NCBI RefSeq assembly: GCF_021228795.1
Contig: NZ_CP089309.1
Coordinates: forward strand, 2,914,001-2,978,000
Reading direction: 5' to 3'
From: Thiocapsa bogorovii
GTDB taxonomy: Bacteria > Pseudomonadota > Gammaproteobacteria > Chromatiales > Chromatiaceae
DNA: 64,000 bases
The notes under the pieces are model-generated. The model ran no database searches, was not told the origin of the DNA, and worked only from the letters and a program-made list of their open reading frames with translations. Positions 20,129 to 59,811 of the stretch are shown here, one piece after another (within the stretch, counting starts at the first letter, position 1; each line of letters opens with the position of its first letter). The position numbers were made by a program, and so were the translations under genes.

Positions 20129-20815
20129 ATGATGGAGACAGCGCCGGGGATCTACTTGACCGCCTTTCTGGTCGGCCTGCTGGGCGGTGTCCATTGTCTG
20201 TCGATGTGCGGCGGTCTCGTGGGCTCCTTGACCTTAGGCTTGGATCCACGGATCCGTCGCGACCCCTTGCTGATGCTGCCCTATCAGCTGACCTACAACC
20301 TGGCCCGCATCGCCGGATACGCCACCGCGGGCGCGCTGTTCGGCGGGCTCGGCGCCTTGCTGCTCCAACTCGACGCCTTTCAGATCATGCAGCGCGTCCT
20401 CTATGGCATCGCCGGGGTCGTCATGATCCTGCTCGGGCTCTATCTCGGCGGCTGGTGGCGTCTCATTGCCGTGGTCGAGCGTGCGGGCGCCGTGCTCTGG
20501 CGGCGTCTCGAGCCCCTGGGTCGACGCGTGCTGCCGGTCCGCAATCTCATGCAGGCCGCGGCACTCGGCTATCTCTGGGCCTGGATCCCCTGCGGTCTCG
20601 TCTACAGCGTCCTCATTACCGCGGTCGCCACGGGCAGTGTCCTGGACGGGGCGCTCGTCATGCTGGCCTTCGGCGCCGGCACCCTCCCGAACCTCCTCGG
20701 CATCGGCCTCCTGGCCGGCGCCGCCGCCCGCATCTCCGAGCGCGCATGGGTCAAGCAAGTCGCCGGGCTGTTGGTCATCGGCTTCGGCCTCTACGCCCTC
20801 TGGCAACTCTATTAA
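20129..20815 (+). CDS. TauE/SafE-like (UreH_2) membrane protein
   Basis: 228 residues with six or seven membrane segments. The motif [11 protein letters not shown] near the N-terminus and [11 protein letters not shown] near residue 150 identify the UreH_2/TauE-SafE-like group, often linked to metal handling and cytochrome oxidase maturation; the conserved Cys/His suggest metal binding (inference). Either of two adjacent ATGs at 20129 and 20132 may be used. Its TAA stop lies inside the left end of a dispersed repeat element (20812-20897). Confidence 0.85.
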
Positions 20816-20897
20816 ATCGCGCTCTTCATTGACATGCCCCGTCATCAGATGGGCCTTGGTCGTGCGCACATGGAACGCTGGAGCTGGCGCGATTTAA
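20812..20897. repeat. Dispersed inverted-end element, copy 1
   Basis: 86 bp bounded by a perfect 11-bp inverted pair, TTAAATCGCGC (20812-20822) and GCGCGATTTAA (20887-20897), 64 nt apart. The left end contains the stop codon of the upstream membrane-protein gene. It belongs to a family of nine copies in this window. Confidence 0.8.
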
Positions 20898-20917
20898 GTA
20901 TTCAAAAATTTAATTGC

Positions 20918-21005
20918 TTAAACCGCGTCGGCTCAAAGGTCTGTTCGCGGCCAAATCCGGCCCTTTCAACTCGAACCTCGCCTGTCGCAAGAAGACGCGG
21001 TTTAA
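20918..21005. repeat. Dispersed inverted-end element, copy 2
   Basis: 88 bp bounded by TTAAACCGCGTC (20918-20929) and GACGCGGTTTAA (20994-21005), a perfect 12-bp inverted pair with the same 64-nt interior as copy 1. An AT-rich 20-nt linker joins copies 1 and 2. The right end supplies the TAA stop of the minus-strand DUF4426 gene. Confidence 0.8.
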
Positions 21006-21448
21006 TCCGTGAAGAACTGTTGCTGCAGCTCGATTGCCGCGGGCTCGGCACCGCCCGGCGGAGTGACCTGGATTTCGAAATCCACGATCTGGAGATTTGC
21101 GATCGGAAACTGTCCGACATAAGAGACGCCTTCACCGACACGGATCTCGCGCATCGGGATTGCGCTCGCAGGCGCGTCCCCGGTGCGTGCGGTGGCCTCG
21201 ACACGAGCCGGCACGTTTTCCCGCGTTCCGTCCGGGTGCGGCTTGACGATCGAGACGGTCAGCACGCCGTTGAGCTTGCTGCGTTGGATCCGGTAAAGAT
21301 TCGCGATCTCGGGATTGAGCATCTCGGTCGTCATGGCGTTGGTGTAGATGGTGTAGTCGCCGACGACAACCGGGCCTTCGGCCCAAGCGCTGTTGGCTGC
21401 GAGCAGTCCCGCGGCGACCACGACCCCTAGGGTTCGTTGAATGATCAT
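21002..21448 (-). CDS. DUF4426 periplasmic protein
   Basis: 148 residues from ATG 21448, with ACGAGG eight bases upstream. A signal peptide ends at AWA before EGPVVVGDYTIYTNA, so the protein is periplasmic. YTIYTNAMTTEMLNPEIANLY and the beta-rich remainder match the DUF4426 family, which in Pseudomonas follows the proC-yggT-yggU genes exactly as here. Function unknown. Both flanks carry dispersed elements: copy 2 forms its stop codon and copy 3 lies 26 bp upstream of its start. Confidence 0.82.
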   Translation of the reverse strand: MIIQRTLGVVVAAGLLAANSAWAEGPVVVGDYTIYTNAMTTEMLNPEIANLYRIQRSKLNGVLTVSIVKPHPDGTRENVPARVEATARTGDAPASAIPMREIRVGEGVSYVGQFPIANLQIVDFEIQVTPPGGAEPAAIELQQQFFTD

Positions 21449-21474
21449 GTTGAAACCTCGTTTGGCGGATAAGA

Positions 21475-21559
21475 TGAACCGCGTCCGCTGCGACATGCGT
21501 TCTCGACACGTGGGCTCGGACGTTAATGAATCAACGACCGTCCCGGTAGACGCGGTTCA
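21475..21559. repeat. Dispersed inverted-end element, copy 3
   Basis: 85 bp bounded by TGAACCGCGTC (21475-21485) and GACGCGGTTCA (21549-21559), a perfect 11-bp inverted pair 63 nt apart. Both arms carry the same T-to-C change relative to the consensus, which suggests paired selection or a copied variant. It lies in the region upstream of DUF4426 and may hold its promoter. Confidence 0.75.
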
Positions 21560-21577
21560 GAAGTCAGGAAAAATCTC

Positions 21578-21663
21578 TAAACCGCGCCAGCGCCCAGTTG
21601 TCGGGGTTGCTGCAGCACCGAGCGCCCTGTGGGACAGGCCATGTCACTGCGAGCGCGGTTTAA
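21578..21663. repeat. Dispersed inverted-end element, copy 4
   Basis: TAAACCGCGCC (21578-21588) and GCGCGGTTTAA (21653-21663) are inverted over ten bases with a 64-nt interior. It follows copy 3 after an 18-nt AT-rich linker. Its right end runs into the minus-strand yggU gene and encodes that protein's last residues (IKPRSQ) instead of a stop. Confidence 0.75.
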
Positions 21664-21946
21664 TCGGGATCGGAAATGTCCGCGGCGCCTGAATCCGCAG
21701 CCGCTTGTACCGCGATTGCTCGCCGCCGATCAAGGACACCTTGGACGGCGCCACGCCGAAGGCGTCCGCGATGAATTTGCGTAGCGCAGTATTACCCTTG
21801 CCCTCGACCGGGGGTGCCTTGATGGCGACCCGATAATGATCGCCCTCCGGCCCGACGAAGGCATCCTTCGGCGCGCGCGGTTTGACGCGCAGCGCCAGTT
21901 CCAAGTCATCGCCATCCCACCGCGACCAGGACTCGGTCTCCGACAC
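21644..21946 (-). CDS. yggU: DUF167 family protein YggU
   Basis: About 100 residues. Core motifs: LRVKPRAPKDAFVG, VAIKAPPVEGKGNTALRKFIA and VSLIGGEQSRYKRLRI, diagnostic of DUF167. Function unknown, though structures suggest nucleic-acid or protein binding. The start is uncertain: GTG 21946 gives the family length but has no clear ribosome site, and a GTG further upstream overlaps the end of yggT. The C-terminal tail IKPRSQ is encoded by a dispersed repeat, so it is probably not native. Confidence 0.85.
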   Translation of the reverse strand: MSETESWSRWDGDDLELALRVKPRAPKDAFVGPEGDHYRVAIKAPPVEGKGNTALRKFIADAFGVAPSKVSLIGGEQSRYKRLRIQAPRTFPIPIKPRSQ

Positions 21947-21975
21947 GATTGAAGGCGCCGCGCTCGAGCCCGGCT

Positions 21976-22551
21976 TCAGAACGGACTGCCGACCAGCCAC
22001 TTGAGCGGCGGGATCAACAGCATCTCGAGCAGGACCAACCCGATCATGACCACCATGGGCGAGAGGTCGATCCCGCCGATGGGCTGAATCAACCGCTGCG
22101 CCGGGCGCATGATCGGATCCGTCAGGCGAGTCAGCAATGCCACGGCGGGGTTGTATGGATCCGGATTGACCCAGCTCAGGATGACGCGAATCAGGATCCC
22201 GAACAGGAAGATGTTGATGAAGAGCTCCACCACGGCAGGTATCGCCCAACCCAGCGCACCGAAGAGCGAGACGTTCAGCCCGAGCACCGCGACCAGCAGC
22301 GCCAGCTCGACGGACTTGAGCAGCCAGGCCACCACCAAGGCGGCCAGATCCATGCCGGCGTAGCCCGGGATGACCTGACGCAGCGGGCGCAGCACCGGCG
22401 AGGTCAGCTTCACCACGAACTGCGAAATCGGGTTGTAGAAGTCGGCCCGCGCCCACTGCAACAGAAAGCGGATCGCCACCAGCGTGATATAGAGTCCGAA
22501 CAGGGTCTGGATCAGGAAGACGGCCGGGTTGGTCAGATAGGATCCGCTCAT
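21976..22551 (-). CDS. yggT: YggT family membrane protein
   Basis: 191 residues with two copies of the YGGT unit, each two membrane helices (LIQTLFGLYITLVAIRFLLQW ... TSPVLRPLRQVIPGYAG; then INIFLFGILIRVILSWVNPDPYNP ... LTDPIMRPAQRLIQPIGG). The family is linked to osmotic protection, turgor and cell division, with unclear mechanism. Its start overlaps the proC stop by four bases, so the two are translationally coupled. Confidence 0.92.
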   Translation of the reverse strand: MSGSYLTNPAVFLIQTLFGLYITLVAIRFLLQWARADFYNPISQFVVKLTSPVLRPLRQVIPGYAGMDLAALVVAWLLKSVELALLVAVLGLNVSLFGALGWAIPAVVELFINIFLFGILIRVILSWVNPDPYNPAVALLTRLTDPIMRPAQRLIQPIGGIDLSPMVVMIGLVLLEMLLIPPLKWLVGSPF

Positions 22552-23378
22552 GCTTGCTCCGACAGGCTCCGGGAGAGATCGACCGCACGGTCATGTGCGG
22601 CGTGCGCGGCGCGCTTCATCAGGGCGTGAAGATCGGCCTTGAGCAGATGCTCGAGTGCACGTTCGGTCGTGCCGCCGGGCGAGGTGACACGCTCGCGCAG
22701 CTCTCCGGGCGTATCCTCGCTCTCCACCGCCATTTTGGCTGCACCCAGCGCGGTCTGGATGGTCAAAAGTCGGGCGGTTTCGGCATCCAGGCCGAGCGAG
22801 ATGCCGGCCTCTTCCAAGGCTTCCATGAAGAGGAAGAAGTAGGCCGGGCCGCTCCCCGAGAGTGCGGTCACCGCGTCGATCTGGGCCTCGGTCTCGACCC
22901 AGCGGGTCAGGCCGACGGCGCGCAGAATGGTCTCGGCGCGATTCCGGCCCTCCTCGCCGACCTCGGGGCTGGCATGCAGACCGATTGCGCCCGTCTGCAC
23001 CATCGCCGGTGTATTGGGCATGGCGCGCACGATCGGCAAGGTTCCGCCGAGCCATCGCTGCAGCGCTTGCTCGGGCACCCCGGCCATGATGGAGAGCACG
23101 AGCGGGGCGCGTGCAGTCACGGCGTCGGCGATCTCGGTGCAGACCTGTGCGGCGAGCTGCGGTTTGACGCAGAGCACGAGCGTATCGGCATCGCTCAGTG
23201 CGTCCCGATTGTCGGCGAAGACCCGGACGCCGTAGCGGGTCTGCAGTATCCGGCGACGATCCGCGCTGGGATCGGCCACTTGGAGCGAGTCAGGCGCATA
23301 GCCGTCGGCAATGAGACCGGCGATCAGACTGGTGGCCATGTTGCCGCCACCGATAAAGGCAATCCTGGTTGTCGTCAT
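22548..23378 (-). CDS. proC: Pyrroline-5-carboxylate reductase
   Basis: 276 residues from ATG 23378. The N-terminal Rossmann motif IAFIGGGNMATSLIAGL binds NAD(P)H. VLCVKPQ, MPNTPAMVQTG and the C-terminal signature SGSGPAYFFLFMEALEEAGISLGL with VTSPGGTTERAL are those of P5C reductase. It carries out the last step of proline synthesis in the cytosol. It lies between yggS (34 bp upstream) and yggT, a standard gammaproteobacterial order. Confidence 0.96.
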   Translation of the reverse strand: MTTTRIAFIGGGNMATSLIAGLIADGYAPDSLQVADPSADRRRILQTRYGVRVFADNRDALSDADTLVLCVKPQLAAQVCTEIADAVTARAPLVLSIMAGVPEQALQRWLGGTLPIVRAMPNTPAMVQTGAIGLHASPEVGEEGRNRAETILRAVGLTRWVETEAQIDAVTALSGSGPAYFFLFMEALEEAGISLGLDAETARLLTIQTALGAAKMAVESEDTPGELRERVTSPGGTTERALEHLLKADLHALMKRAAHAAHDRAVDLSRSLSEQA

Positions 23379-23412
23379 GTCGAGCCCTAAAGAGATCGGA
23401 GGCTGATGAAGG

Positions 23413-24138
23413 TCATTGCGCCGCATTATACGACCGCGGCCCGAAGACTGCCGTGCCCACACGGACCAGGGTCGCGCCTTCGAGGATCGCGGCCTCGAGG
23501 TCGTCCGACATGCCCATCGACAGACATTCGAGCGGTCGGTTCGGGGTGGCTAATCGATCGCGCAGGAGACGCAGGGCGCGAAACGGCGCGCGCTGGGAAT
23601 CTTCGTCCTCGGCGGGTGCGGGGAGCGTCATGAGTCCACACACATCCAGGCCGGGTAGGGTCGCGCACGCGGCGATCATGTCCGCGATCGCGTCCGGCTC
23701 GACACCGCCCTTTGTGGTCTCGCCGCCGACGTTGACCTGGATGCAGACCTTGAGCGGGGGCAGTGTGCTCGGACGTTGCTCGCTCAGACGACGGGCGTGG
23801 GCCGCATCGGACAGACCGTGGACCCAATCGAAACGGGTCGCGATCTGGCGGGTCTTGTTCCCCTGGATCCGGCCGATGAAGTGCCACTCGATATCGGCAA
23901 GGTCGGCGAGCAGGTCGATCTTCTCGATCGCTTCCTGGACATAGCTCTCGCCGAATGCGCGTTGGCCGGCGGCGTAGGCGGCACGCACGGCGTCGGAGCC
24001 GTGGGTCTTGCTCACGGCGAGCAGCGCGACACTGCCCGGCGGGCGCCGAGCGCGCTCGACGGCCGCGCGAATCCGGGCCTGCACCTCGCGCAGACGCTTC
24101 GGGATGCCGTCGTCGCCGATTGCCTCGAGCCTGTCCAT
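23413..24138 (-). CDS. yggS: YggS family pyridoxal phosphate homeostasis protein
   Basis: 241 residues from ATG 24138, with AAGGG upstream. The PLP-binding lysine lies in LLAVSKTHG; FGESYVQEAIEK, WHFIGRIQGNKTR and CLSMGMSDDLEAAI complete the pattern of the alanine-racemase-like barrel family. It has no known catalytic activity; it buffers free PLP. It begins 11 bp after rdgB ends, in the same transcript. Confidence 0.95.
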   Translation of the reverse strand: MDRLEAIGDDGIPKRLREVQARIRAAVERARRPPGSVALLAVSKTHGSDAVRAAYAAGQRAFGESYVQEAIEKIDLLADLADIEWHFIGRIQGNKTRQIATRFDWVHGLSDAAHARRLSEQRPSTLPPLKVCIQVNVGGETTKGGVEPDAIADMIAACATLPGLDVCGLMTLPAPAEDEDSQRAPFRALRLLRDRLATPNRPLECLSMGMSDDLEAAILEGATLVRVGTAVFGPRSYNAAQ

Positions 24139-24149
24139 CGCGCGGCCCT

Positions 24150-24773
24150 TCAGACGTCGGCGCCGGCCGACTTCAAGAGGGCCTGCAGGGCACGCAGGGC
24201 CTGACCCCGGTGGCTCAGGCTGTTCTTGGTCTGCGGATCCAGCTCCGCGGAGCTGCACCCGTGCGTCGGCACCCAGAAGATCGGGTCGTATCCGAAGCCG
24301 TGCTTGCCGCGCGGGGCGGTAAGGATCGAGCCCTCCCAGGTGCCCTGGCAGATGAGCGGCGTGGGATCGGCAGGATGGCGCAGATAGACCAAGACGCATT
24401 GGAATCGGGCGGTGCGTTTGGATTCTTCCACCCCTTTCAGGTCGTCGAGCAGCTTCTCCAGATTGGCCGTATCGGATGCCCCGGGCCCCGCATAGCGTGC
24501 GGAATAGATGCCTGGCGCGCCGGCGAGTGCGTCCACCTCCAAGCCTGAATCGTCGGCTAGGGCCGGGAGATCGCTGTAGCGCGCGGCATGGCGTGCCTTG
24601 AGGATCGCGTTCTCTACGAAGGTCAGCCCCGTCTCTTCGACGTCCGGCACGGCGAAATCGCTCTGAGGGACCGCTTTGATGCGGGCGCTCAGCAACAGCT
24701 GATTGATCTCTCTGACCTTTCCCGGGTTGTTGCTGGCCAGGACGAGGGCTTCGCCGGCGTGCGGGATACTCAT
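24150..24773 (-). CDS. rdgB: XTP/dITP diphosphatase
   Basis: 207 residues. VLASNNPGKVREIN, TFVENAILKARHAAR, ALADDSGLEVDALAGAPG and HGFGYDPIF are the Ham1/RdgB motifs. The enzyme hydrolyses deaminated purine nucleoside triphosphates (ITP, XTP and their deoxy forms) to monophosphates, keeping them out of nucleic acids. It lies between rph and yggS, as in many relatives. Confidence 0.96.
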   Translation of the reverse strand: MSIPHAGEALVLASNNPGKVREINQLLLSARIKAVPQSDFAVPDVEETGLTFVENAILKARHAARYSDLPALADDSGLEVDALAGAPGIYSARYAGPGASDTANLEKLLDDLKGVEESKRTARFQCVLVYLRHPADPTPLICQGTWEGSILTAPRGKHGFGYDPIFWVPTHGCSSAELDPQTKNSLSHRGQALRALQALLKSAGADV

Positions 24774-24813
24774 GTCGTTCTCCTTGTCTAGCGATCGGGT
24801 ACGGGCACCCCTG

Positions 24814-25560
24814 TCATGCGTTTTCCAGTGCGGAGCGCTGAGCGGTTTGGATTTCGCGGATGCCGGCGGCGCCGACCGCGATGAGTGCGTCGAGCTCGGC
24901 GCGGGTGAAAGGCACGCCCTCGGCGGTCCCTTGGACCTCGACGAAGCGGCCTTCGCCGTCCATCACCAGGTTCATGTCGGTTTCTGCGGTTGCATCTTCG
25001 GCATAATCGAGATCGAGGACTGCGACTCCTTTGACGATGCCGACCGAGACGGCGGCGATCTGTGTGTGGAGCGGATTGGTGGTGATCTCGCCGCGTGCCA
25101 GCAGCCCGTCGATCGCGTCGCGCAAGGCGACCCAGGCGCCGGTGATGGACGCGGTGCGGGTGCCCCCGTCGGCCTGCAGGACATCGCAGTCGAGCGTGAT
25201 CGAGCGCTCCCCGAGTGCGTTCAGATCCATCGCCGCGCGCAGCGACCGACCGATCAGGCGCTGGATCTCGAGCGTCCGTCCGCCCTGCTTGCCCCGCGCC
25301 GCCTCACGCGGACTGCGGGTATCGGTCGCGCGCGGGAGCATTCCGTATTCGGCGGTCACCCAGCCTTTGCCCTGACCCTTCAGGAAGGGCGGGACCTGCG
25401 ACTCCACGCTTGCGGTGCAGAGCACGCGCGTCTCCCCGAACTCGACCAGCACGGAGCCCTCCGCATGGCGGGTGAACCCGCGGGTCAATCGAATCGGCCG
25501 CAGTTCGTCGGGGCGGCGCCCGGACGGCCGCACAGGGGCGTTTGCAGAGGTGTCTGTCAT
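24814..25560 (-). CDS. rph: Ribonuclease PH
   Basis: 248 residues. Phosphorolytic exoribonuclease motifs: [66 protein letters not shown] and [18 protein letters not shown]. It trims tRNA 3' ends using phosphate. Divergent from yicC beyond the kinase gene, the arrangement seen in Pseudomonas and relatives. Confidence 0.96.
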
Positions 25561-25605
25561 GGCGATGCTTGCTCTCGAAACCGGAACGGGTATGGGGTGG
25601 CGTGA

Positions 25606-26526
25606 CTATTCGGATGCACTCGGAGGCGTGCCCGACACCGTGTCCGAGCTTCGGGCCACCTGTTCAAGGACCCCCGCAAGGAGCTCTCCGGCATCCTGTG
25701 GACGGTCGCCGATCTCCATCGACATCGACCAATCGACCAGCCTGAGTAAGGGGAAAGGATACCGGGTTTTCAGCTCCTCCGTGGCCGGAATCAGGGTATC
25801 TTCCTTCTGGCGCTGGGGTGCGGGGGGCGGTGTGCGTCCTTCCATGCAGGCGCGGATACTCGCCCCGACCGCGTAGACGTCGGTCCAGGGTCCGATATGA
25901 CCGTCGCGCAGGTATTGCTCGATCGGCGAATAACCTGCGGTGACGACCTGTCCGCCCCGTGCGCGGCTCTTCGCCAAGGGGTGCACGGCACCGAGATCGA
26001 GCAACATGGGTCGGTTGCCGTGCCTCAGGTGGATATTCCCGGGTTTGACGTCGAGATGGACCATGGAGCGGCGATGCAGCAGTGACAGGGCGTCGAGAAC
26101 CGGGATAAAGACATCGAGGATGAAGGTCGTGCTCAGGCCACCGCGCCGCGCCTGTACATAGGCCCCGAGATTGCGCCCGCGCTCGTTGGGCATGACCAAA
26201 TAGCCCGTATCGTTGGCGAGGAAGAAATCCAAGACCCGTACGATCGAAGGGTGCTTCAAGGACGCGAGGGCCTTGGCCTCTTGAAAGAACAACCTACGCC
26301 CTTGATACAGATTCTCGGCGAGCTGCGGCTCGCTCGCCATCACGCGCCGGGCGCTATCGCGCCGCGCGATCTTCTTGGGCATGTATTCCTTTATCACGAC
26401 CTCTTCGCCCGAGTCCTCGTCATAGGCGAGGTAGATGAGACTGAAACCGCCCTGCGCGATGGTCTTCACGACCCGATACGGACCCAGCAAGGTGCCGGCG
26501 GGCAGGCTGTCTCGGGCGACGGCCAT
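25606..26526 (-). CDS. Hanks-type serine/threonine protein kinase
   Basis: 306 residues from ATG 26526. Kinase subdomains in order: a degenerate glycine loop TIAQGGFSLIY, lysine in VVIKEYMP, glutamate in FFQEAKALASL, catalytic loop HLDVKPGNIHL (Asp, Lys and Asn kept), LLDLGAVHP in place of DFG, and GYSPIEQY in place of APE. It should be active. No membrane helix or sensor domain follows, so it is a soluble minimal kinase. It is 45 bp upstream of rph on the same strand and faces yicC. No PP2C phosphatase is next to it, although one often accompanies this group. Confidence 0.85.
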   Translation of the reverse strand: MAVARDSLPAGTLLGPYRVVKTIAQGGFSLIYLAYDEDSGEEVVIKEYMPKKIARRDSARRVMASEPQLAENLYQGRRLFFQEAKALASLKHPSIVRVLDFFLANDTGYLVMPNERGRNLGAYVQARRGGLSTTFILDVFIPVLDALSLLHRRSMVHLDVKPGNIHLRHGNRPMLLDLGAVHPLAKSRARGGQVVTAGYSPIEQYLRDGHIGPWTDVYAVGASIRACMEGRTPPPAPQRQKEDTLIPATEELKTRYPFPLLRLVDWSMSMEIGDRPQDAGELLAGVLEQVARSSDTVSGTPPSASE

Positions 26527-26943
26527 GATGGTCTCTGTCGGTCTCCGTTCGGGGTTCGGCGGCACGCAGTCGGCCGCGGGCAAGTCAAACGCTCGGAGTA
26601 GAATCCTGCGCCCGCGGGCGAAACAAGGCAACGTATACCGAGCGTACGGGATCGGTCGATCCTCGTTGGACTCCGACAGGGGCGCGCTCGGCGTCGGGTA
26701 GACTCTGAGTGCGGTGCAGCCGACACCCCGGACGGACTCTCGGTGTCCGCGGCGCATCGACCGAGAGTGATCGATCGCTTCCTGCTTCTTGCCGTTGCGT
26801 CCGGCAGGGCGACCCGGATAATGGTCGTCCGGAGTCCGGATCCCCGCGAGCGGTCGCACGCACTCGGTCTCGCCGCCGCTCGAGGCGCCCGAGCGCCGAC
26901 GCCTCAATCGTCGCCCCCACATCGATCCCCAAGGTAAGACACC
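26527..26943. other. Divergent intergenic region, kinase/yicC
   Basis: 417 bp between the divergent kinase and yicC genes. I see no convincing ORF on either strand and no strong inverted repeat. It should contain the promoters of the yicC side and of the long minus-strand kinase-rph-rdgB-yggS-proC run. Confidence 0.4.
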
Positions 26944-27810
26944 ATGATCAAGAGTATGACGGCCTTCGCGCGCGAGTCGCGCTGCGGTGATTTCGGCGAG
27001 CTGACCTGGGAGCTGCGGGCCGTCAACCACCGCTATCTCGAGCCCCACCTGCGGTTGCCCGAGGAGTTGCGCGCGCTCGAAACCGGCGTGCGCACTCGAC
27101 TGGCCGCCCGCGTGCAACGCGGCAAGCTCGACTGCAACCTGCGCTATGTCCCAGCCGTCGGATTCACCGGAAGCCTGCGGGTCAACCGAGCCTTTGTCGA
27201 GCAGCTCCTTGCGGCCGGGCAGGAGGTCGGCGCCATCATCGGTCGCGGTGTCGACCCGTCTCCCTTCGAGCTGCTGCGCTGGCCCGGCGTGCTCCAGGAG
27301 CAAGACCGCGACCTGGATCAGGTGACGGCCGCCGCGCTGGATCTTCTCGAAACCGCAATCGACACCCTTCTTGCGACCCGCGAGCGCGAGGGCGAGCGCC
27401 TGGAACGCCTTCTGGCCGATCGCTGCGACCGCCTGCAGGAGAGCGTGGTGCGTGTGCGTGCCCGGATGCCCGAGGTGATGACGAGCGTGCGGCGGCGTCT
27501 TGCCGAACGTCTCGCCGAGCTGCGCGCCGAGCTGGACCCCGCGCGCCTTGAGCAGGAGATGGCCCTGGTCGCGGCGCGACTGGATGTCGACGAAGAGATG
27601 GACCGTCTCGTCGCCCATGTCGCCGAGGTTCGGGACGTGCTCAAACGCCGCGAGCCGGTCGGGCGCCGTCTGGATTTTCTCATGCAGGAGCTCAACCGCG
27701 AGGCCAACACCCTGGGTTCCAAATCAGCCGACGTGGAGGTCACCCGAGAGGCGGTCGAGATGAAGGTCCTGATCGAGCAGATGCGCGAGCAGGTGCAGAA
27801 TCTGGAGTGA
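26944..27810 (+). CDS. yicC: YicC family endoribonuclease
   Basis: 288 residues. The N-terminus IKSMTAFARES and the repeated ELRAVNHRYLEPHLRLPEELRALE are the YicC_N signature. The C-terminal DUF1732 segment (EEMDRLVAHVAEV ... GRRLDFLMQELNREANTLGSKSADVEVT) is complete. Members are single-strand RNA endonucleases that can modulate small-RNA turnover. In most Gammaproteobacteria gmk follows directly; here 2.4 kb of minus-strand, decayed DNA separates them. Confidence 0.94.
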   Translation: MIKSMTAFARESRCGDFGELTWELRAVNHRYLEPHLRLPEELRALETGVRTRLAARVQRGKLDCNLRYVPAVGFTGSLRVNRAFVEQLLAAGQEVGAIIGRGVDPSPFELLRWPGVLQEQDRDLDQVTAAALDLLETAIDTLLATREREGERLERLLADRCDRLQESVVRVRARMPEVMTSVRRRLAERLAELRAELDPARLEQEMALVAARLDVDEEMDRLVAHVAEVRDVLKRREPVGRRLDFLMQELNREANTLGSKSADVEVTREAVEMKVLIEQMREQVQNLE

Positions 27811-27891
27811 CAAGGAGGTTTGCGTTACGTGCCACGATGGCCGGAGTCACGAACAAGGCACGCATGCTTCTCCGGGCAACACGCAAGACCC

Positions 27892-41813: not shown

Positions 41814-42119
41814 GCTAAGCCGCGTCCCGAGGGTTGTGCATGCTCCGAGCGGCCCTCGATCTTCCACGCGCCATACTCGCGTGTAAGCGTTCGCACCCAC
41901 CCTCCCCAGCCCTCCCCCGCAAGGGTGGAGGGAGCGCGTCCACACAAGGCAACAGTGTTTCGGTTCCCCTCGCGGGACGGGTCCGAGCGGTTCTCCAACT
42001 CGGCGTCGATGCGTATCGAACGCGTTCTGTTATCGTCCTAGACCGCGTCGGCGAGGATCTCGCTGATGTCTGCAAGGCCGATCCAACCCCGAGCTCGCGC
42101 ATGAGCCCTCGGACGCGGT
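41814..42119. other. Intergenic region holding repeats
   Basis: 306 bp between DUF2189 and the sulfotransferase gene, convergent. It contains a lone repeat end at 41815-41826, a C-rich run around 41898-41934 (ccctcccc ... gggtggaggg), and dispersed element copy 5. No gene is seen. Confidence 0.5.
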
Positions 42120-42123
42120 CTAG
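42038..42123. repeat. Dispersed inverted-end element, copy 5
   Basis: 86 bp bounded by CTAGACCGCGTC (42038-42049) and GACGCGGTCTAG (42112-42123), a perfect 12-bp inverted pair 62 nt apart. Both arms share a T-to-C variant. The right end supplies the TAG stop of the sulfotransferase gene. Confidence 0.75.
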
Positions 42124-43870: not shown

Positions 43871-43882
43871 GACGCGGTTTAA
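43871..43882. repeat. Lone end of the dispersed element family
   Basis: GACGCGGTTTAA with no partner 62-64 nt to its left (expected near 43797-43808, inside xerC). It is followed by a 21-nt AT-rich linker and then copy 6, the same tandem spacing as copies 1/2 and 7/8. Confidence 0.6.
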
Positions 43883-43903
43883 AATTCTAATTCTTTCATC
43901 ATC

Positions 43904-43990
43904 CTAAATCGCGTCAGCTCCGACGTTTATGGATTTGGCCGAGGCAGACCCCACCCAGAACCGATGCATATCGCACCGGACGCGATTTAG
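43904..43990. repeat. Dispersed inverted-end element, copy 6
   Basis: 87 bp bounded by CTAAATCGCGTC (43904-43915) and GACGCGATTTAG (43979-43990), a perfect 12-bp inverted pair 63 nt apart. The right end supplies the TAA stop of the DUF484 gene. Confidence 0.8.
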
Positions 43991-51908: not shown

Positions 51909-51920
51909 AGAAATATCTCA

Positions 51921-52746: not shown

Positions 52747-52974
52747 AGCGGGGCCGCCAAGCGCCCGGCGCCCCCGCCGGCGACCAGGGGCCGGCGACCG
52801 TTCGTCTCCGAGAGGGGCGCGGTCGGTCTCGCGCGCGAGCGAACACTCGACACCCTGCCGACGCCGCGTGTCCAGGTGTGCGATCGGCCGGCAGCGGGCT
52901 GCCCCAACGATGTGACCGCGTGGCGTCTCGGTGCGACACGCGCCGATCCAGCGGTTTCCGTGTGCCGCGATGTC

Positions 52975-53806
52975 ATGCCCGAAGGCCCTGAAATCCGCCG
53001 CGCCGCGGACCGCATCGCCGCGGCCATCGCCGGCCAAAGACTCGCCGAGGTCCGCTTCGGTCTGCCGCGCCTGCGCCGATTCGAGGACGAGTTGATCGGG
53101 GCCCGAGTCGTCGCGGTCGAGACCCGAGGCAAGGCCCTGCTGATCGCCTTACGAGCCGGGCCTGACCCTCTACGCCCACAATCAGCTCTACGGCGTTTGG
53201 TACGTGCGCCGGCGCGGGGAGCTGCCGAGCACCGCCCGCAGCCTGCGGGTAGCCCTGCACACCGAGACCGACAGCGCACTCCTCTACAGCGCGTCGGACA
53301 TCGCCGTGCTGGACGCCGACGAGCTGCTGCGCCATCCGTACCTTGCCCGGCTCGGCCCGGACCTGCTCGACCCCTCGCTGCACTGGCGCGACCTGGCCCG
53401 GCGGCTGCACGGGCCCGCCTTCCGCAACCGCAGCCTCGGCGCCCTGTACTTGGATCAGGGCTTTCTCGCCGGGCTGGGCAACTACCTGCGCAGCGAGATC
53501 TTGTTCGCGGCCGGATTGCATCCGGCGCAGCGTCCCCGCGACATGGACCGGAAGACCCGCAATCGGCTGGCCCGGGCGACGCTGGAGATCGGCTGGCGCG
53601 CCTATCTCGGCGGGGTCACCAATCCCGAGGTCCGGGTGGCGGCACTCAAGGCCGCGGGGCAGTCGCGCCGTGGCTATCGCTTTGCCGTATTCGGTCGCGA
53701 CGGGCTCCCCTGCCATGTCTGCGGTGCGGCCATCGAGCGGATCGAGGTCGGCGGGCGGCGGCTCTACCGGTGTCCGAGCTGTCAGCCGTGCGCGTCGACG
53801 CGATGA
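52975..53806 (+). pseudogene. nei: Endonuclease VIII (Nei), interrupted by a frameshift
   Basis: Start [14 protein letters not shown] with catalytic Pro2/Glu3 at ATG 52975. Reading is correct to [11 protein letters not shown] and then shifts near 53158-53163: one extra C in GGGCCTGACC moves the frame away from [15 protein letters not shown]. In the second frame the helix-two-turn-helix region ([20 protein letters not shown]) and zinc finger ([24 protein letters not shown]) are complete. Removing one base restores a ~276-residue glycosylase/AP-lyase for oxidised pyrimidines. Either a real loss or a sequencing error. Confidence 0.85.
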
Positions 53807-53876
53807 TCGCCGATATCGGTCGGAACGGGCTGTCGCGCCATGTCTCGCCCGCGGTCCTCGGTTTCGTCGACCCCGC

Positions 53877-54248
53877 CTATCCCGGCGCCCCGGACCCGAC
53901 GGCGCCGCGAAGGGATGTCGGGCAATCAGATAATATAGGCCGGAAGCCACGGTCGAGAAGCGACTGATCCACACCGTAAGAGCGCACCTGGATGGTTTGA
54001 CCCGGCTCTACCGGAACGCTCGCGCGCAACACCGAGAGGATCTCCATGCGATAGACGACGTCGAAGCGCTCGGTGGATTCCGCCGCGGTCTGCACCTGCA
54101 GGACCTTGACCTCGAGGACCGCTCGGGCACCGGCCTTGAGCGTCTGCACCGCATCCGGCGGCAGCACCGCGCGGACCGTCCCGGTCAGGAGAGCGAGCAG
54201 CCCGAAGGCAGCGATGGCGGCGGATTGCATCAAGCGGGTCGCGGACAT
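53877..54248 (-). CDS. Small exported protein of unknown function
   Basis: 123 residues. A signal peptide ([16 protein letters not shown]) precedes a beta-rich mature part ([50 protein letters not shown]). The last ~25 residues are Gly/Ser/Pro-rich and may be a truncated or shifted end. No family recognised. Convergent with nei. Confidence 0.55.
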
Positions 54249-54450
54249 GTCGTTTCATCCTCTTCGGGTTCACGCGTGGCCGGGTCGTCTGAGTGTGCGG
54301 GCGGAAGAACCCGGTCGGCTTGCCCCGGCCTCGGCCGAGGTCGAGAACCGGTTGCCAAACGGGTGAAGGAGCATCAAGTACTCCTCGGACCCTGACGAGA
54401 CGGATATCCCGGGCATGTTGCGGCCGCCGGACCGAGCACCTGGACGCGTC

Positions 54451-54480
54451 GGGTGGACAAGCGCAGTGCAGTCCACCAGC
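54451..54480. repeat. REP-like unit downstream of priA
   Basis: GGGTGGACAAGCGCAGTGCA then GTCCACCAGC, a near-copy of the unit at 34315-34344 (28 of 30 bases agree). It forms a GGTGGAC/GTCCACC hairpin. It lies 36 bp downstream of the priA stop on the priA strand. Confidence 0.6.
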
Positions 54481-54515
54481 CCCGGCGAAACTCGACAAGA
54501 GCAACCGCTCGACGC

Positions 54516-56816
54516 TCAGTACATATCCTGCGGATCCACGTCCAGCGACCAGCGCAGTCCTTTGCTTCTGGGTAAAGCCCGCAGGGCGCGGCTCCAGCTG
54601 GCCAGAAACCGCTGGAGTCGCGGACGTCGGGAGGATTGGATCAGAAGCTGGGCGCGGTAGCGCCCACCGCGGCGCTCCATCGGCGCCGGGACCGGGCCGT
54701 AGCACTGCACTCCGGTCTCGGCGCGCCGTTCGGCAGGGCCCTCGTTGAGTTCCTCCTCCTGCCCTTCTGCAAGCCCTTCTGCAATGAGGCGGGCCTGATT
54801 CAAGAAGGCCGTCGCGGTTTCGGCGGTCGGGGCCTCGGCGCGCAGCAGCACGAGATGGCTGAACGGCGGTAGCTCGGCCTCGCGCCGCTCGGCGAGGGCC
54901 GTGGTCGCGAAGCCCGTGTAACCCTCGCGCAAGAGGCTTTGTAGCAGGGGGTGCTCGGGGTGGCGGGTCTGAAGGACCACTCGCCCGGGGCGCTCGGCAC
55001 GTCCTGCGCGTCCGGTGACCTGCACGATCAGTTGCGCGGTGCGTTCCGGTGCGCGGAAATCGCTTGCGTAGAGCGATTGGTCGAGATCCAGGATCCCGAC
55101 CAGGGTCACGCCGGGGAAGTCGTGCCCTTTGGCCAGCATCTGCGTGCCGAGCAGGATCTGCACCTCGCCGCGCCGGACCTCGTCCAGCAGGCGTGCCAGC
55201 TCGCCGCGACGCCGGGTGGTGTCGCGGTCGAGCCGGGCGATGCCGACGCCCGGAAACAGGGGGCGCAGCTCCTCGTCGAGTCGCTCGGTGCCGCGTCCGA
55301 GCATGCGCAGATCCGTCCCTTTGCAGTCCGGACAGGTGTCGGGCAGCGGCCGAGTCCAACCGCAGTGGTGACACCAGAGGCGTCGGCGGGCCAGGTGGAG
55401 GGTGAGGCGCGCGTCGCAGTGCGGGCATTCGCCGACCCAACCGCAGGCGTGACAGGTGAGCACCGGGGCATAGCCGCGACGGTTCAGAAAGAGGAGTACC
55501 TGATTGCCGGCGGCGATCTCGGTGCGCATCTCTTCGCGCAGGACCGCGGAGAGCCCGGCCTGGAGCGGCTGATTGCGGATATCCAGCAGCGAGGTCCGCG
55601 GCGTGCAGGCGGCGCCCGCGCGCTGGGGCAGGCGCAACCAGCCGTAGCGGGCGGTCTGCGCGTTGTTGAGCGTCTCGAGCGAGGGTGTCGCCGAGCCGAG
55701 CACGACCGGGCAACCGACCAGCTGGGCGCGTCGCACGGCGAGATCCCGTGCCGAGTAGCGGAATCCCTCCTGCTGCTTGAGCGAGGCGTCATGCTCCTCG
55801 TCGACCAGGATCAGCCCGAGGCGCGGCAGGGGCACGAACACCGCCGAGCGCGTCCCGAGCACGACGCCTGCGTGTCCGGAGGCGGCGCGGTGCCAGGCTC
55901 GCTCGCGGTCTCCGGCGGCGAGCCCGGAATGCAAGACAGCGGGCGGGTCGGGCAGTCGCGAGGCCAGGCGCTCGCGCAACTGCGGGGTCAGGCCGATCTC
56001 GGGAACGATCAGGAGGGTCTGGGCGCCGCGGGCGGCGGCGGCCTCGATCAGGCGGATGTAGACCTCGGTCTTGCCGCTGCCGGTCACGCCATCGAGCAGG
56101 AATGGGCTGAAGCCGCCGAGCCCGGCGGCGACCCGACGAAGCGCCTCGGTCTGATCCGCATTGAGCTCGGGACCGGGTTCGGGCTCGGCGCCTGAGGTCT
56201 GGGTGACGGGTCCCGCCGGCGTGAGGCGGCAGGTCTCCAGCAGGCCGCGTGCACGGAGGCTGCGCAGCGTCGCCGCACAGGGGCCAAGGCGTGCGTTCAG
56301 ATCGGCCACCGCGATGCCCTCGGGTACGGACCTGACCAGGGTCAGAAGCTCGCGCTGCTTCGGGGCTCGCCGCAGTGTGTCGAGATCCAGTGTTCGACCG
56401 GCCAGTGTCGCCGAGACGCCTGGGATCTGCTCGTCCATGATGGGCATGGCTCGGCGCAGACGGGCGGGGAGCGCGCTGAAGAGGGCCTCGCCGATCGGTT
56501 GCCGGTAGTAGTCCGCCGCCCAACGGATCAGGGTCAAGTCGGCTGCGCTCAGGACGGGCCGCGGATCGAGCAGGCGCTCGATCGGCTTCAGACGGGCGGG
56601 ATCCTGATCGGAGGTGTCGCGCAGCTCGAGCAGGATGCCCACGCGCCGACTTCGGCCGAAGGGCACCAGCACGCGCTGACCGGGCGACAGTGACGGCGTT
56701 GCCGAGGAGTCGTCCGATGCCGGAGATGGCATCAGATAATCGAACGCATCCATCAGCGGCGCCGCGACGGCGACACGCAGGATCGGACCGGGCTTTCTGA
56801 TCGGGGCGGGTGGCAC
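54516..56816 (-). CDS. priA: Primosomal replication restart helicase PriA
   Basis: 766 residues, probable GTG start at 56816. The N-terminal 3'-DNA-end-binding domain (ILRVAVAAPLMDAFDYLMP, QRVLVPFGRSRRVGIL) is followed by the helicase core with Walker A GVTGSGKTEVY, VDEEHDASLKQ and the zinc-binding cysteines (VLTCHACGWVGECPHCDARL, CHHCGWTRPLPDTCPDCKG). LIVQVTGRAGRAERPG is helicase motif VI. It reloads DnaB at stalled forks. Monocistronic here. Confidence 0.96.
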   Translation of the reverse strand: MPPAPIRKPGPILRVAVAAPLMDAFDYLMPSPASDDSSATPSLSPGQRVLVPFGRSRRVGILLELRDTSDQDPARLKPIERLLDPRPVLSAADLTLIRWAADYYRQPIGEALFSALPARLRRAMPIMDEQIPGVSATLAGRTLDLDTLRRAPKQRELLTLVRSVPEGIAVADLNARLGPCAATLRSLRARGLLETCRLTPAGPVTQTSGAEPEPGPELNADQTEALRRVAAGLGGFSPFLLDGVTGSGKTEVYIRLIEAAAARGAQTLLIVPEIGLTPQLRERLASRLPDPPAVLHSGLAAGDRERAWHRAASGHAGVVLGTRSAVFVPLPRLGLILVDEEHDASLKQQEGFRYSARDLAVRRAQLVGCPVVLGSATPSLETLNNAQTARYGWLRLPQRAGAACTPRTSLLDIRNQPLQAGLSAVLREEMRTEIAAGNQVLLFLNRRGYAPVLTCHACGWVGECPHCDARLTLHLARRRLWCHHCGWTRPLPDTCPDCKGTDLRMLGRGTERLDEELRPLFPGVGIARLDRDTTRRRGELARLLDEVRRGEVQILLGTQMLAKGHDFPGVTLVGILDLDQSLYASDFRAPERTAQLIVQVTGRAGRAERPGRVVLQTRHPEHPLLQSLLREGYTGFATTALAERREAELPPFSHLVLLRAEAPTAETATAFLNQARLIAEGLAEGQEEELNEGPAERRAETGVQCYGPVPAPMERRGGRYRAQLLIQSSRRPRLQRFLASWSRALRALPRSKGLRWSLDVDPQDMY

Positions 56817-57273
56817 GTTGGTCGAGCGCTTGTTTCGAGGACGGGTTTTAGGGACAGGCGACAGTCGTCGATTAGACGCGAGACGTCTGCGCTTGGCTAG
56901 AAAACACCGCCAATCACTTGTCGTGGAACATGAAACCCGAGCAATTCACAATTTCTGTGGATAAGTCTGGGGATGACGGGTGCAAAGTCGACGCGAACAG
57001 GCGTCATTGTTACGGTTATGTTCGTTTGGAAACTTTTTAGCCAATTTGTAAACATGAGTCTGATCAGTCGCTTGAATACCGGGCAAGTGCCTCTTCCGGG
57101 GCGACGGGAACATTCGCCGAGGGTCTTTGGCGGCATGCGCGGCGGCTGTGAATGATCAGTGGGTTAAAGAACGGGTTCTCCACGATTCGATCGCGAAACC
57201 CGTTGACGGCGCCGGCTTGCGCGAGAAGGTCAACTGTGTATCATGCTCGCAAATTCCGAGCCGTAACGCCGCT
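56817..57273. other. AT-richer intergenic region with one perfect DnaA box
   Basis: 457 bp between divergent priA and the HNH gene. It contains TGTGGATAA at 56956-56964, the exact complement of the consensus DnaA box TTATCCACA, within unusually AT-rich DNA (about 56935-57065). Only one perfect box is present, so this is not evidence of an origin. It probably holds the priA promoter. Confidence 0.45.
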
Positions 57274-57903
57274 ATGTTGTCACTGACTCAACAGGTACTG
57301 CGAACGGATTTGGCGGGTATGCCGATGGAGTGGGTGGACTACCGGGTTGCCGCCCGGTTGTATTTCCTCGGGCAGGTGGCCTATGCCTGCGGGGATGCCT
57401 TGTTCGAGCTCCGCGGCGGTATCAATTCGAGTACCCATCGACAGAGTCGCTTGGAGATCCACTCCATCATCGCGACCTACGGGACGCATCATGCCCTGAA
57501 CAAGCTTCAGGACGATTATGCACCACCCCTGTCGAACCGCACCCTGTTTCACCGCGATGACCACATGTGCATGTATTGCGGCAGCCGCTTTTCGGGGCGT
57601 CATCTTTCGCGCGATCACGTACGTCCCACCAGTCGTGGTGGCCAGGATGTCTGGAACAACGTCGTGACCGCCTGTGTGCGGTGCAACAATTTCAAGGCCG
57701 GGCGGACGCCCGAGGCGGCCGGGATGGAGTTGTTGGCGGTGCCCTTCACGCCGACGCACGCGGAGTACATCTTCCTGATGGGGCGCCACGTCCTGGCGGA
57801 TCAGATGGCCTTCCTACGAGCCCACTTTCCGCGCTCGAGTCCGCTGCATCGACGCATCGCTCGGGGTATCGACGAGACCTCGATGCATGAATCCGATGCG
57901 TGA
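57274..57903 (+). CDS. HNH endonuclease family protein
   Basis: 209 residues from ATG 57274. A ~100-residue N-terminal part with Leu/Ala-rich helices is followed by the HNH domain: CMYCGSRFSGRHLSRDHVRP with Cys pair and catalytic His, then NNVVTACVRCNNFKAGRTP with the second Cys pair and Asn. So it binds zinc and probably cuts DNA. No methyltransferase, intron or phage genes are nearby, so it is a solitary chromosomal member of a widespread uncharacterised group. A longer start upstream lacks support. Confidence 0.85.
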   Translation: MLSLTQQVLRTDLAGMPMEWVDYRVAARLYFLGQVAYACGDALFELRGGINSSTHRQSRLEIHSIIATYGTHHALNKLQDDYAPPLSNRTLFHRDDHMCMYCGSRFSGRHLSRDHVRPTSRGGQDVWNNVVTACVRCNNFKAGRTPEAAGMELLAVPFTPTHAEYIFLMGRHVLADQMAFLRAHFPRSSPLHRRIARGIDETSMHESDA

Positions 57904-57946
57904 GTCCTCCAAGTGAGCCCGGCAAATTGCCGGGTCATTGATCCGG

Positions 57947-58822
57947 ATGAATGATCGCGAGGCGATCGCACGCCAAATCGCGAGTGCGACCGGACGACCT
58001 TTCCGCCTCCAGCGAGAGCAGTCGGTCGGCGGCGGTTGCATCAATCGCGCGGTGGTTCTCGGCGACGGTGCGTGGGCCTATTTCGTCAAGCTCAACAGCG
58101 CCGACCGTCTGGGGATGTTCGAAGCGGAGTCCGAGGGCCTCGCCGCCTTGCGCGCGGCGAATGCGATCCGAGTGCCCGAGCCTGTCTGCACAGGTCTTGC
58201 GGGCAACCAAAGTTTCCTGGCAATCGAACACCTCGATCTCTCCGGGCGTTTGGACGGCGCGGAGGCGGGCCGCCGACTGGCGCAGCTGCATAGAGTCACC
58301 GCTTCCAACTTCGGCTGGCATCGCGACAACACCATCGGGTCGACCCCCCAGCACAACCTTCGAGCGTCGGAGTGGGTCGACTTTTGGCGTGCGCATCGGC
58401 TCGGTTTTCAGCTGGATCTGGCCGCCCGCAACGGCTACGGCCGCGCCTTGTCGGACCCGGGCGAGCGCTTGATGTCGGTCCTCGAGGATCTGATCGGTCA
58501 CCGTCCCGTGCCGTCTCTGCTTCACGGCGATCTTTGGGGCGGCAACATCGGCGCAACCCGCGAGGGTGAGCCGGTCATCTTCGATCCGGCCGCCTATCAC
58601 GGTGATCGGGAGACGGATCTGGCCATGACCGAGCTCTTCGGCGGCTTCGGGTCCGACTTCTACGCGGCCTATCGCGAGGCTTGGCCGCTGCCGCCCGAAT
58701 ACGGCACGCGCCGGATCCTCTACAATCTTTACCATGTCTTGAATCACCTCAACCTTTTCGGCGGCGGCTATCTCGCACAGGCCAAAGGAATGATGGATCG
58801 GCTGCTGGCGGCGGTGCGCTGA
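57947..58822 (+). CDS. Fructosamine kinase-like protein
   Basis: 291 residues from ATG 57947. Motifs of the FN3K/aminoglycoside-phosphotransferase fold: GGGCINRAVVL, AYFVKLNSADRLGMFEAE, LHGDLWGGNIGA (catalytic Asp) and VIFDPAAYHGDRETDLAMTELFGGF. Family members phosphorylate ketoamines on glycated proteins, allowing deglycation. Upstream is a small GC hairpin (57918-57934, CCCGGC/GCCGGG) that may attenuate transcription from the HNH gene 43 bp before. Confidence 0.88.
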   Translation: MNDREAIARQIASATGRPFRLQREQSVGGGCINRAVVLGDGAWAYFVKLNSADRLGMFEAESEGLAALRAANAIRVPEPVCTGLAGNQSFLAIEHLDLSGRLDGAEAGRRLAQLHRVTASNFGWHRDNTIGSTPQHNLRASEWVDFWRAHRLGFQLDLAARNGYGRALSDPGERLMSVLEDLIGHRPVPSLLHGDLWGGNIGATREGEPVIFDPAAYHGDRETDLAMTELFGGFGSDFYAAYREAWPLPPEYGTRRILYNLYHVLNHLNLFGGGYLAQAKGMMDRLLAAVR

Positions 58823-58945
58823 GGACCGGTGTGCGCGGTGCGGGGATTCGTCGTTTCCTTGAAGATGACGGATATGTTAAAAGTCCGCTATTGCGACCAA
58901 GATTTGTCCGATCTCTGATTGAGTTACGCCGACCCTTTCTTCTCC

Positions 58946-59461
58946 ATGCCCAGAGAGCTTCTCATCCTGCGACACGCCAAGTCCGACTGGGACTCGGTCG
59001 CGACGAGCGACTTCGATCGCCCTTTGGCCAAACGCGGAAAGAGCGACGCCCCCAAGGTCGGAGCCTGGCTCTATCGGGAGGGTCTGGTCCCGGATCTGGT
59101 GGTGAGCTCCCCGGCCGAGCGCGCCAAACAGACCGCGTCGAAGGTCTGCAAGTGTCTCGACATCAAGAAAAAGCAGATCGTCTGGGATGTCGACATCTAC
59201 GAGGCCGAGGCACCGAAGCTCTTGTCCGTCCTCGGGCGCTGTTCCCCCGAGGCAGCGACCGTCCTGCTGATCGGCCATAACCCGGGTCTCGAGCAACTCC
59301 TCATGCACCTCGTCGGCGAGGATCTGGAGATCCCGGACGACGGCAAGCTCCTCCCCACCGCCACCGTGGCCCGCCTGGAGATGCCGGACGATTGGAGTGC
59401 GCTGCCGTGCGGCAGTGCTCAGCTGATCTCGATCACCCGCCCGCGCAGCCTCAAAGGCTGA
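58946..59461 (+). CDS. sixA: Phosphohistidine phosphatase SixA
   Basis: 171 residues from ATG 58946. Histidine-phosphatase motif LLILRHAKSDWD (the His is the phospho-acceptor), VVSSPAERAKQTA, and LIGHNPGLEQLL with the second His. SixA acts on phosphohistidine of phosphotransfer proteins. It follows the kinase-like gene by 123 bp. A dispersed element starts 12 bp after its stop. Confidence 0.9.
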   Translation: MPRELLILRHAKSDWDSVATSDFDRPLAKRGKSDAPKVGAWLYREGLVPDLVVSSPAERAKQTASKVCKCLDIKKKQIVWDVDIYEAEAPKLLSVLGRCSPEAATVLLIGHNPGLEQLLMHLVGEDLEIPDDGKLLPTATVARLEMPDDWSALPCGSAQLISITRPRSLKG

Positions 59462-59473
59462 TTCCGTCACGAC

Positions 59474-59560
59474 TTAAACGGCGCCCGGAGCGGTATGCGA
59501 TGTTTTTGGATGGGATCGGCCCCGTCAGACTTGACTACCGCTGGAGCCGGCGCGGTTTAA
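59474..59560. repeat. Dispersed inverted-end element, copy 7
   Basis: TTAAACGGCGCC (59474-59485) and GGCGCGGTTTAA (59549-59560), inverted with one mismatch, interior 63 nt. The interior's right side shares CGCTGGAGC with copy 1. Confidence 0.7.
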
Positions 59561-59581
59561 AACATTAAAAAATAGATTATT

Positions 59582-59667
59582 TTAAGCCGCATGCCCGCTA
59601 AGCGCCGTGGATGCACTAAATGTAGAGCTTACTCGAAAATGAGCATCTTACTCGGGACGCGGTTTAG
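59582..59667. repeat. Dispersed inverted-end element, copy 8
   Basis: Diverged left end TTAAGCCGCATG (59582-59593) and right end GACGCGGTTTAG (59656-59667), interior 62 nt. It follows copy 7 after a 21-nt AT-rich linker. Confidence 0.65.
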
Positions 59668-59725
59668 CCCGGCCGCCGCGTCCCGGCAGCGTCCGATCGA
59701 TAAGACCCTCTTTCGCTTTCTTCCC

Positions 59726-59811
59726 CTAAACCGCGCCCCGCCAAGTCCGCGTGTGACCGCCAAGGCCGCAGCGACCCCGCAACATCGCCTGTCGTGTCGA
59801 GCGCGGTTTAG
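59726..59811. repeat. Dispersed inverted-end element, copy 9
   Basis: CTAAACCGCGCC (59726-59737) and GCGCGGTTTAG (59801-59811), inverted over 11 bases, interior 63 nt. The right end supplies the TAA stop of the EF-G paralogue. Between copies 8 and 9 lie 58 nt instead of ~20. Confidence 0.75.

Follow-up and report, generated by a model that had tools for sequence, protein, structure and literature searches.

A mobile-element-like repeat of Chromatiaceae that often abuts stop codons and has paired arms at a fixed distance

What kind of repeat keeps its ends and its length and lets its middle change, and why does it so often lie exactly where a gene stops? The question is raised by a stretch of 64,000 nucleotides from Thiocapsa bogorovii (contig NZ_CP089309.1, positions 2,914,001 to 2,978,000; hereafter the window), which is part of a complete 5.65-Mb genome and in which an initial annotation, made from the letters alone, had marked nine copies of an element with inverted 12-bp ends. 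All nine were found, each 85-88 bp long (copies 1 to 9, starting at 20812, 20918, 21474, 21577, 42038, 43904, 59474, 59582 and 59726). Our data suggest, with a probability that we put at roughly 0.6, that they belong to a non-autonomous mobile repeat family of the Chromatiaceae that resembles miniature inverted-repeat transposable elements (MITEs), inserts at stop codons and has its paired arms subsequently kept by selection. The link to stop codons was missed by the initial annotation and is added here.

The unit comprises two inverted arms of about 12 bp (YTAAACCGCGYC) flanking an interior of 61-65 nt. Genome-wide, 211 exact matches to TAAACCGCG-N(56-76)-CGCGGTTTA were counted on each strand, as against 0 for its reversed control. 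In a sample of the same genome covering 864 kb in 41 stretches (the window included; 7,500 masked bases), arm pairs peak at spacings of 86 (22 cases), 87 (31) and 88 (15), other spacings between 40 and 180 mostly having 0-1 and a second rise at 192-196 being due to doublets; over all loci, the outer arm edges are 85-89 apart in 635 nonredundant cases, with at most eight at every other spacing from 60 to 115. Random spacing of the arms, which would have undone the proposal of a constant unit length, is contradicted by the exact pairs, the empty control and the sharp peak at 86-88 nt, and 345 of 372 units have an interior whose length deviates from the mode by at most 1 nt. Linkers between neighbouring units are equally close to their mode in 142 of 186 cases. 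Because interiors had been gathered at 56-71 nt and linkers at 5-60 nt, their standard deviations were compared within 7 nt of the mode and were 1.08 for interiors (370 of 372) and 1.53 for linkers (177 of 186). Rare forms with internal deletions keep both arms and lack most of the interior (24-47 bp; L036:13447, L094 and L122:7269). Helical phasing was considered and rejected, as most pairs of arms spaced 70-76 or 95-99 nt apart include an arm of a normal copy. A de novo search of the samples from this genome and the sister genome G001 gave few other arm families at 86 nt, and inverted repeats that do not belong to the family are slightly over-represented at total lengths of 92-99 nt in both genomes.

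A covariance-model search of this genome and its relatives returned at least 79 matches in eight of eleven genomes of the genus (the own genome included), 6 and 12 in two others and 0 in one, while outside the genus but within the family at least 79 matches were returned for one genome and 1-3 for three. Overall, 14 of 56 genomes had matches and 42 had none at the stricter filters used. The exact matches, among those listed, derive from Thiocapsa, Thiobaca, Thiocystis, Lamprocystis and one Chromatiaceae metagenome-assembled genome (MAG). No link to phages was seen, viral contigs having 0 matches to the exact GTC-arm pattern.

With genes called as open reading frames (ORFs) on the basis of codon usage (77.6% coding in the own genome, 76% in G001), a stop codon lies precisely at the outer end that faces the 3' end of a gene in 35 of 81 cases in the own genome and in 21 of 55 in G001, with four and three more, respectively, being one base off. 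None of 157 elements in the two samples lies inside a called gene. Counted as insertion units, 37 of 73 (own genome) and 22 of 44 (G001) abut a called stop, including TGA stops, which the YTAR motif does not cover; for free YTAR sites outside called coding sequences (CDS) the numbers are 102 of 817 (12.5%) and 32 of 397 (8.1%), giving Fisher odds of 7.2 and 11.4, where the ORF-based calls probably make the count of free intergenic sites too high and thereby the expected stop fraction too low. Statistically, then, contact with a stop codon is far commoner for insertion units than for the other YTAR sites available. Moreover, in a set of 656 elements, whose orthologs are not independent since several genomes are pooled, the triplet in the far arm mirrors the stop in 194 of the 210 elements with one stop arm (164 TAA, 24 TGA and 6 TAG). 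Among the copies with TGA stops, 12 elements have TGA on both arms together with a called stop. In a small sample from other genera, made up of loci with a printed record title, a stop coincides with an arm in 3/18 (Thiobaca), 4/9 (Thiocystis minor), 3/7 (Thiocystis MAG) and 0/2 (Lamprocystis) cases.

How a gene can receive such an element is illustrated by one gene end, which reads CCCC-TAA-TTC in G001, G008 and G010 and CCCC-TAAACC...GGTT-TAA-TTC in G007; the own genome has TGA there, G002 and G004 have an element end, and G005, G006 and G009 differ. In this one clean case, an insertion on a TAA stop is flanked by TA or TAA at either end, and the stop is restored because the target TA is followed by the first A of the element. 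We envisage that the mobile form, commonly a mixed two-unit composite, would be moved by a putative transposase into the TA of a stop codon, so that the gene that is hit would be spared. At locus 42038 one genome is without the element, which may be a deletion.

After insertion, the two parts of the element change at different rates. Divergence was compared between non-reference species at 13 orthologous loci, each with at least three sequences; the score covers orthologs that have the element, those that lost it altogether being outside it, and 9 of 82 rows were dropped (length outside 84-90, more than 12 gapped bases, or at least seven arm differences, the last rule accounting for seven of the nine). 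Per site, the divergence was 0.066 for arms, 0.189 for interiors and 0.13-0.18 for flanks, which corresponds to an arm/interior ratio of 0.35 (bootstrap 0.19-0.52), with arms slower than interiors at 13/13 loci and slower than both flanks at 9/13. For the orthologs of copy 2 (20918), pairwise differences number 0/504 in the arms vs 361/1335 in the interior. Coding constraint does not explain the conservation, since where one arm encodes the stop (six loci) the opposite arm has diverged just as little as the gene arm (51 vs 52 differences in 984). The orthologs thus show that the two arms have been conserved better than the interior, to an extent that varies with the treatment of decayed copies, and that the interior drifts at about the flanking rate yet keeps its length.

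The arms also change together. The paired substitutions that had been noticed in copies 1, 3, 5 and 6 were confirmed: both arms carry T at position 6 in copies 1 and 6, TGA in copy 3 and TAG in copy 5. Of two single-genome samples (100 and 54 elements), the one of 100 from the own genome has the same change on both arms more often than expected under independence at positions 3 (17 vs 6.0), 4 (3 vs 0.25), 5 (3 vs 0.56), 6 (6 vs 0.9), 7 (3 vs 0.3) and 11 (30 vs 13.7), with little or no concerted change at positions 2, 8-10 and 12. Part of the covariation at position 1 may reflect a palindromic target (CTAG or TTAA). In a test on 65 copies the covariation score was reached by 0/500 shuffles, a figure that relatedness inflates, and the count of double-change pairs by 48/500. 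Double changes in place were seen at four orthologous loci, i.e. at position 3 of L069:6632 (G004), position 6 of 20812 and, in G007, position 12 of 43904 and position 11 of 59726; one-sided arm changes are common too, at other orthologous loci.

The view that the interiors are unrelated has to be abandoned. In an oriented comparison of 88 interiors, among them those of six of the nine window copies, single linkage with the 99.9% level of shuffles as threshold places 70 in one cluster, and the interiors form one superfamily with subfamilies A-D. The inner ends are asymmetric, GGCTCC by the 5' arm and GCATaCCGC by the 3' arm both being common. Outside the large cluster are 18 of the 88, including window copies 2 (20918) and 9 (59726), each alone; the interiors of copies 1 (20812) and 4 (21577) pair with each other, likewise outside it, and those of copies 7 (59474) and 8 (59582) are within it. 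Profile hidden Markov models (HMMs) pick up six of the nine window copies (2, 3, 6, 7, 8 and 9).

Neighbouring units combine in a regular manner. All 29 adjacent HMM-detected pairs (19 from the own genome, 10 from G001) consist of one A/D unit and one B/C unit with their 5' ends facing, and the common paired form is such a mixed head-to-head composite of about 194 bp with an AT-rich linker of about 21 nt. Among composites defined by their arms, 45 of 186 have the same base at position 11 of both inner arms, and mixing is therefore usual though not shown for all. G001 has many near-identical copies with amplified composites; of 20 A copies with high scores, selected in the main because their scores were equal, 19 have a B- or C-type partner beside them, in some cases damaged, and one has none. 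In this set, the frame with the best score ends exactly at the outer A arm in 8/20 cases and at the outer partner arm in 2/15. The window composite at 59474-59667 has similar matches of about 193 bp in at least eight genomes of the genus, the own genome included, and in G003 a linker and a consensus A unit have been added precisely at the 5' end of a resident copy. A sequence ending in GGAAATCACC recurrently abuts element ends, in the flanks of L101, L102 and L114 in G001 and of L031:4453 in G000.

Several observations weigh against the proposal of stop-codon insertion followed by selection on the arms. Four of the nine window copies (3, 4, 7 and 8) supply no stop, and in the pooled set neither arm has a called stop in 440 of 656 elements. 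The clean empty site is a single one, its inserted copy is a composite with an internally deleted left unit, and duplication of TA is there not distinguishable from that of TAA; at the 59474 composite two empty genomes show no TA. The arms of some copies are decaying (21474, 21577), at 4/13 loci the arms are no better conserved than the slower flank, and without any row filter (82 rows, among them misplaced ones and others that have genuinely lost an arm) the divergence becomes 0.120 for arms and 0.204 for interiors (ratio 0.59; arms slower at 11/13 loci), which lowers our confidence both in the proposal as a whole and in a two-site DNA device as considered below. At arm positions 8-10 and 12 most changes are one-sided; selection on pairing, which had been read from the paired substitutions, is accordingly supported by the concerted changes at positions 3-7 and 11, the double changes at four loci and the slower arms, and is less certain than the constant length and the paired ends. 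Finally, the 34 of 78 transposase loci that were read (10/14 Y1_Tnp, PF01797; 4/4 DDE_3; 20/60 DDE_Tnp_1) yielded neither an autonomous element nor a transposase with ends of this type. An examination of orphan arms for an autonomous element found none, and the arm-like pairs with a spacing of 1.03 kb in L390 and L392 match poorly. At L069:16865-18610 in the own genome an insertion sequence (IS) of about 1.74 kb with a DDE_Tnp_1 transposase separates the two units of a composite; it is near-identical in more than 25 places in the genome and has, by eye, a TTAG duplication at this site.

Could the family be an ordinary MITE that chooses TA and nothing more, the stops being tolerated TA sites in a GC-rich genome and the quality of the arms a matter of sampling recent or intact copies? 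The TA or TAA flanks, the absence of elements from called genes, the near-identical copies in G001 and the ratio of only 0.59 with decayed and badly placed rows kept agree with this, and bacterial MITEs with TA ends are well known, as passages of PMC2229807 set out. We nevertheless consider it rather unlikely, given that stops are enriched about 4-6 fold even relative to non-CDS YTAR sites, that arms are slower than interiors among non-reference species whether or not rows are filtered, that concerted double changes occur at four orthologous loci and that interiors vary less in length than linkers. The arms might instead be kept identical without selection, by template switching between the inverted repeats as a mutational process, which would yield the concerted changes at positions 3-7 and 11. 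Such a process should, however, act more easily across a linker of about 21 nt than across 62 nt, whereas arms differ at position 11 in 141 of 186 composites across the linker and in 7.5% within units; homogenisation alone would, moreover, not be expected to lower divergence between species, and the arms do diverge less. We regard it as improbable.

If the arms are selected, the copies at gene 3' ends would be kept for a role that needs both arms paired, or acting together, at a fixed distance, most likely as a 3'-end structure or as a DNA site bound at both arms. Our tentative suggestion is that the mobile repeat is by now a permanent component of gene ends and persists there as a DNA device with two sites, where selection acts mainly on the pairing arms and the distance of 61-65 bp, so that the stop and its mirror co-evolve. 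A device acting in RNA, i.e. a transcribed stem starting from the stop codon and serving as terminator, mRNA stabiliser or ribosome-stalling stem in the manner of Escherichia coli repetitive extragenic palindromic (REP) sequences, appears doubtful. The position at the stop codon speaks for it, as ribosomes are reported to stall at REPs that lie no more than 15 nt from a stop (PMC12306157), and several single copies, not all, fold better than shuffles. Pairing in RNA should favour G-U, yet sense-strand single mismatches outside position 1 in the pooled genomes are about equally of G-U (27) and A-C (30) type, so that RNA pairing is not favoured; in addition, a 62-nt loop in RNA would require no fixed length. 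A shared interior fold was rejected, with RNAalifold retaining only five arm pairs and single-copy folds differing between copies, and the window and nine further loci have 0 matches to Rfam families at gathering score. An intrinsic terminator (GC stem, short loop, U run) was not recognised either: in two stretches scanned, terminator-like sites were at the level of shuffles (6 vs 8.1 and 0 vs 1.1), and one of the six lies in an element (copy 8). Mobilisation as REPs or bacterial interspersed mosaic elements (BIMEs) by REP-associated tyrosine transposases (RAYTs) is brought to mind by the two-type head-to-head pairs with a linker and by the 14 PF01797 matches in the genome. It seems as improbable as template switching: 0/10 RAYT loci read are flanked by an element, and the short hairpin tagged with GTAG or CGTC was not seen, the loop being 62 nt. 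One element, at L072:102-187, lies about 1.3 kb from a RAYT-type gene, which is predicted by genome density alone.

Within the window, copies 1, 2, 5, 6 and 9 supply the stop of the abutting gene at arm positions 2-4, and Pfam domains match most of the length of the five genes that they end. The arms are near the consensus, the left arm of copy 8 deviating by 3 mismatches in 12. Linkers of 18-21 nt, as initially described, apply to gaps of 20 and 21 nt, the further gaps between neighbours being 16 and 58 nt. Copy 1 (20812..20897, minus strand) supplies with its left arm the TAA stop (20813-20815) of a DsbD_2-type gene (20129-20815, plus strand) and forms a composite with copy 2, its orientation being weakly supported; an AT-rich linker of 20 nt (20898..20917) leads to copy 2 (20918..21005, plus strand), whose right arm supplies the stop (21002-21004) of a minus-strand DUF4426 gene and whose arms are identical in the seven ortholog sequences compared. 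Directly upstream of the DUF4426 gene lies copy 3 (21474..21560, minus strand), with TGA in both arms, adjoined by copy 4 (21577..21663, plus strand, orientation weakly supported), about 18 nt within which an abutting minus-strand ORF terminates; both show arm decay in relatives. Copy 5 (42038..42123, minus strand, orientation set by eye) supplies with its right arm the TAG stop (42120-42122) of a minus-strand sulfotransferase-like gene, and its far arm mirrors TAG. A single arm-like sequence (TAAGCCGCGTCC) directly past a gene stop at 41815, 220 bp from copy 5, is perhaps a decayed unit. Copy 6 (43904..43990, plus strand) supplies with its right arm the TAA stop (43987-43989) of a minus-strand DUF484 gene and has T at position 6 of both arms in the six ortholog sequences compared; to its left, the alignment places a remnant (43871..43903) with the inner arm of a decayed partner unit and the linker. 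Copy 7 (59474..59560, minus strand, subfamily A) lies 12 nt past the stop codon of a histidine-phosphatase-like gene and is joined into a composite with copy 8 (59582..59667, plus strand, subfamily B) by an AT-rich linker of 21 nt (59561..59581), and the right arm of copy 9 (59726..59811, plus strand) supplies the stop (59808-59810) of a minus-strand elongation factor G-like gene.

Small intergenic repeats are usually regarded as dead mobile DNA. Here the genus-wide comparison separates the parts that are kept, two arms and their spacing, from a drifting middle, and the mirrored stop codons are a natural readout of pairing. With this family, the co-option of a mobile repeat as an element of gene ends becomes open to test. 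To land on TA and to start with A is, moreover, a simple way for an insertion to spare its target gene.

Among known systems, integron attC sites have co-varying inverted ends around a variable middle, with the core RYYYAAC / GTTRRRY; the repeat ends read YTAAAC / GTTTAR and do not match the core GTTRRRY, and the copies are dispersed, not in cassette arrays. In Neisseria intergenic mosaic elements (NIMEs), dRS3 bounds RS pieces, whereas the present family has plain 12-bp inverted arms and interiors mostly of one superfamily and one length. NIMEs are formed, as outlined in part of PMC3898611, by 20-bp dRS3 repeats and RS families of 30-160 bp. A literature search for such a repeat, or for repeats of the host group, found no description, and a term search of a Thiocapsa genome paper (PMC10892978) for six repeat-related words gave no hit. 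With REPs and BIMEs the family shares high copy number, head-to-head pairs and nearness to gene 3' ends, and REP ends can supply a stop codon, TAG (a passage in PMC3733652). It differs in its 86-bp units with a 62-nt interior, without the GTAG/CGTC tag and with no RAYT adjoining in the ten loci read; a hairpin of 20-40 bp is not found, the arms being 62 nt apart, and by the features tested the family is not REP. Bacterial MITEs (Correia/NEMIS, ERIC/RU-1 and RUP) are shorter than 200 bp, with terminal inverted repeats, TA ends and target duplication, according to sections of PMC2229807, and all of these are shared, the target-site duplication on the strength of one clean case. Contrary to the initial annotation, which had set the pattern apart from that of a MITE, the terminal inverted repeats, the TA/TAA flanks of that case and the near-identical copies in G001 are MITE-like, and the family has the testable MITE features, bar a matching IS, which was not found in the transposase loci read or among orphan arms. 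It differs from known MITEs in its mixed two-unit composites, its insertion centred on stop codons and its drifting interior of fixed length between more conserved, co-varying arms; what is unusual seems to be that the arms and their spacing are kept afterwards and the middle is not.

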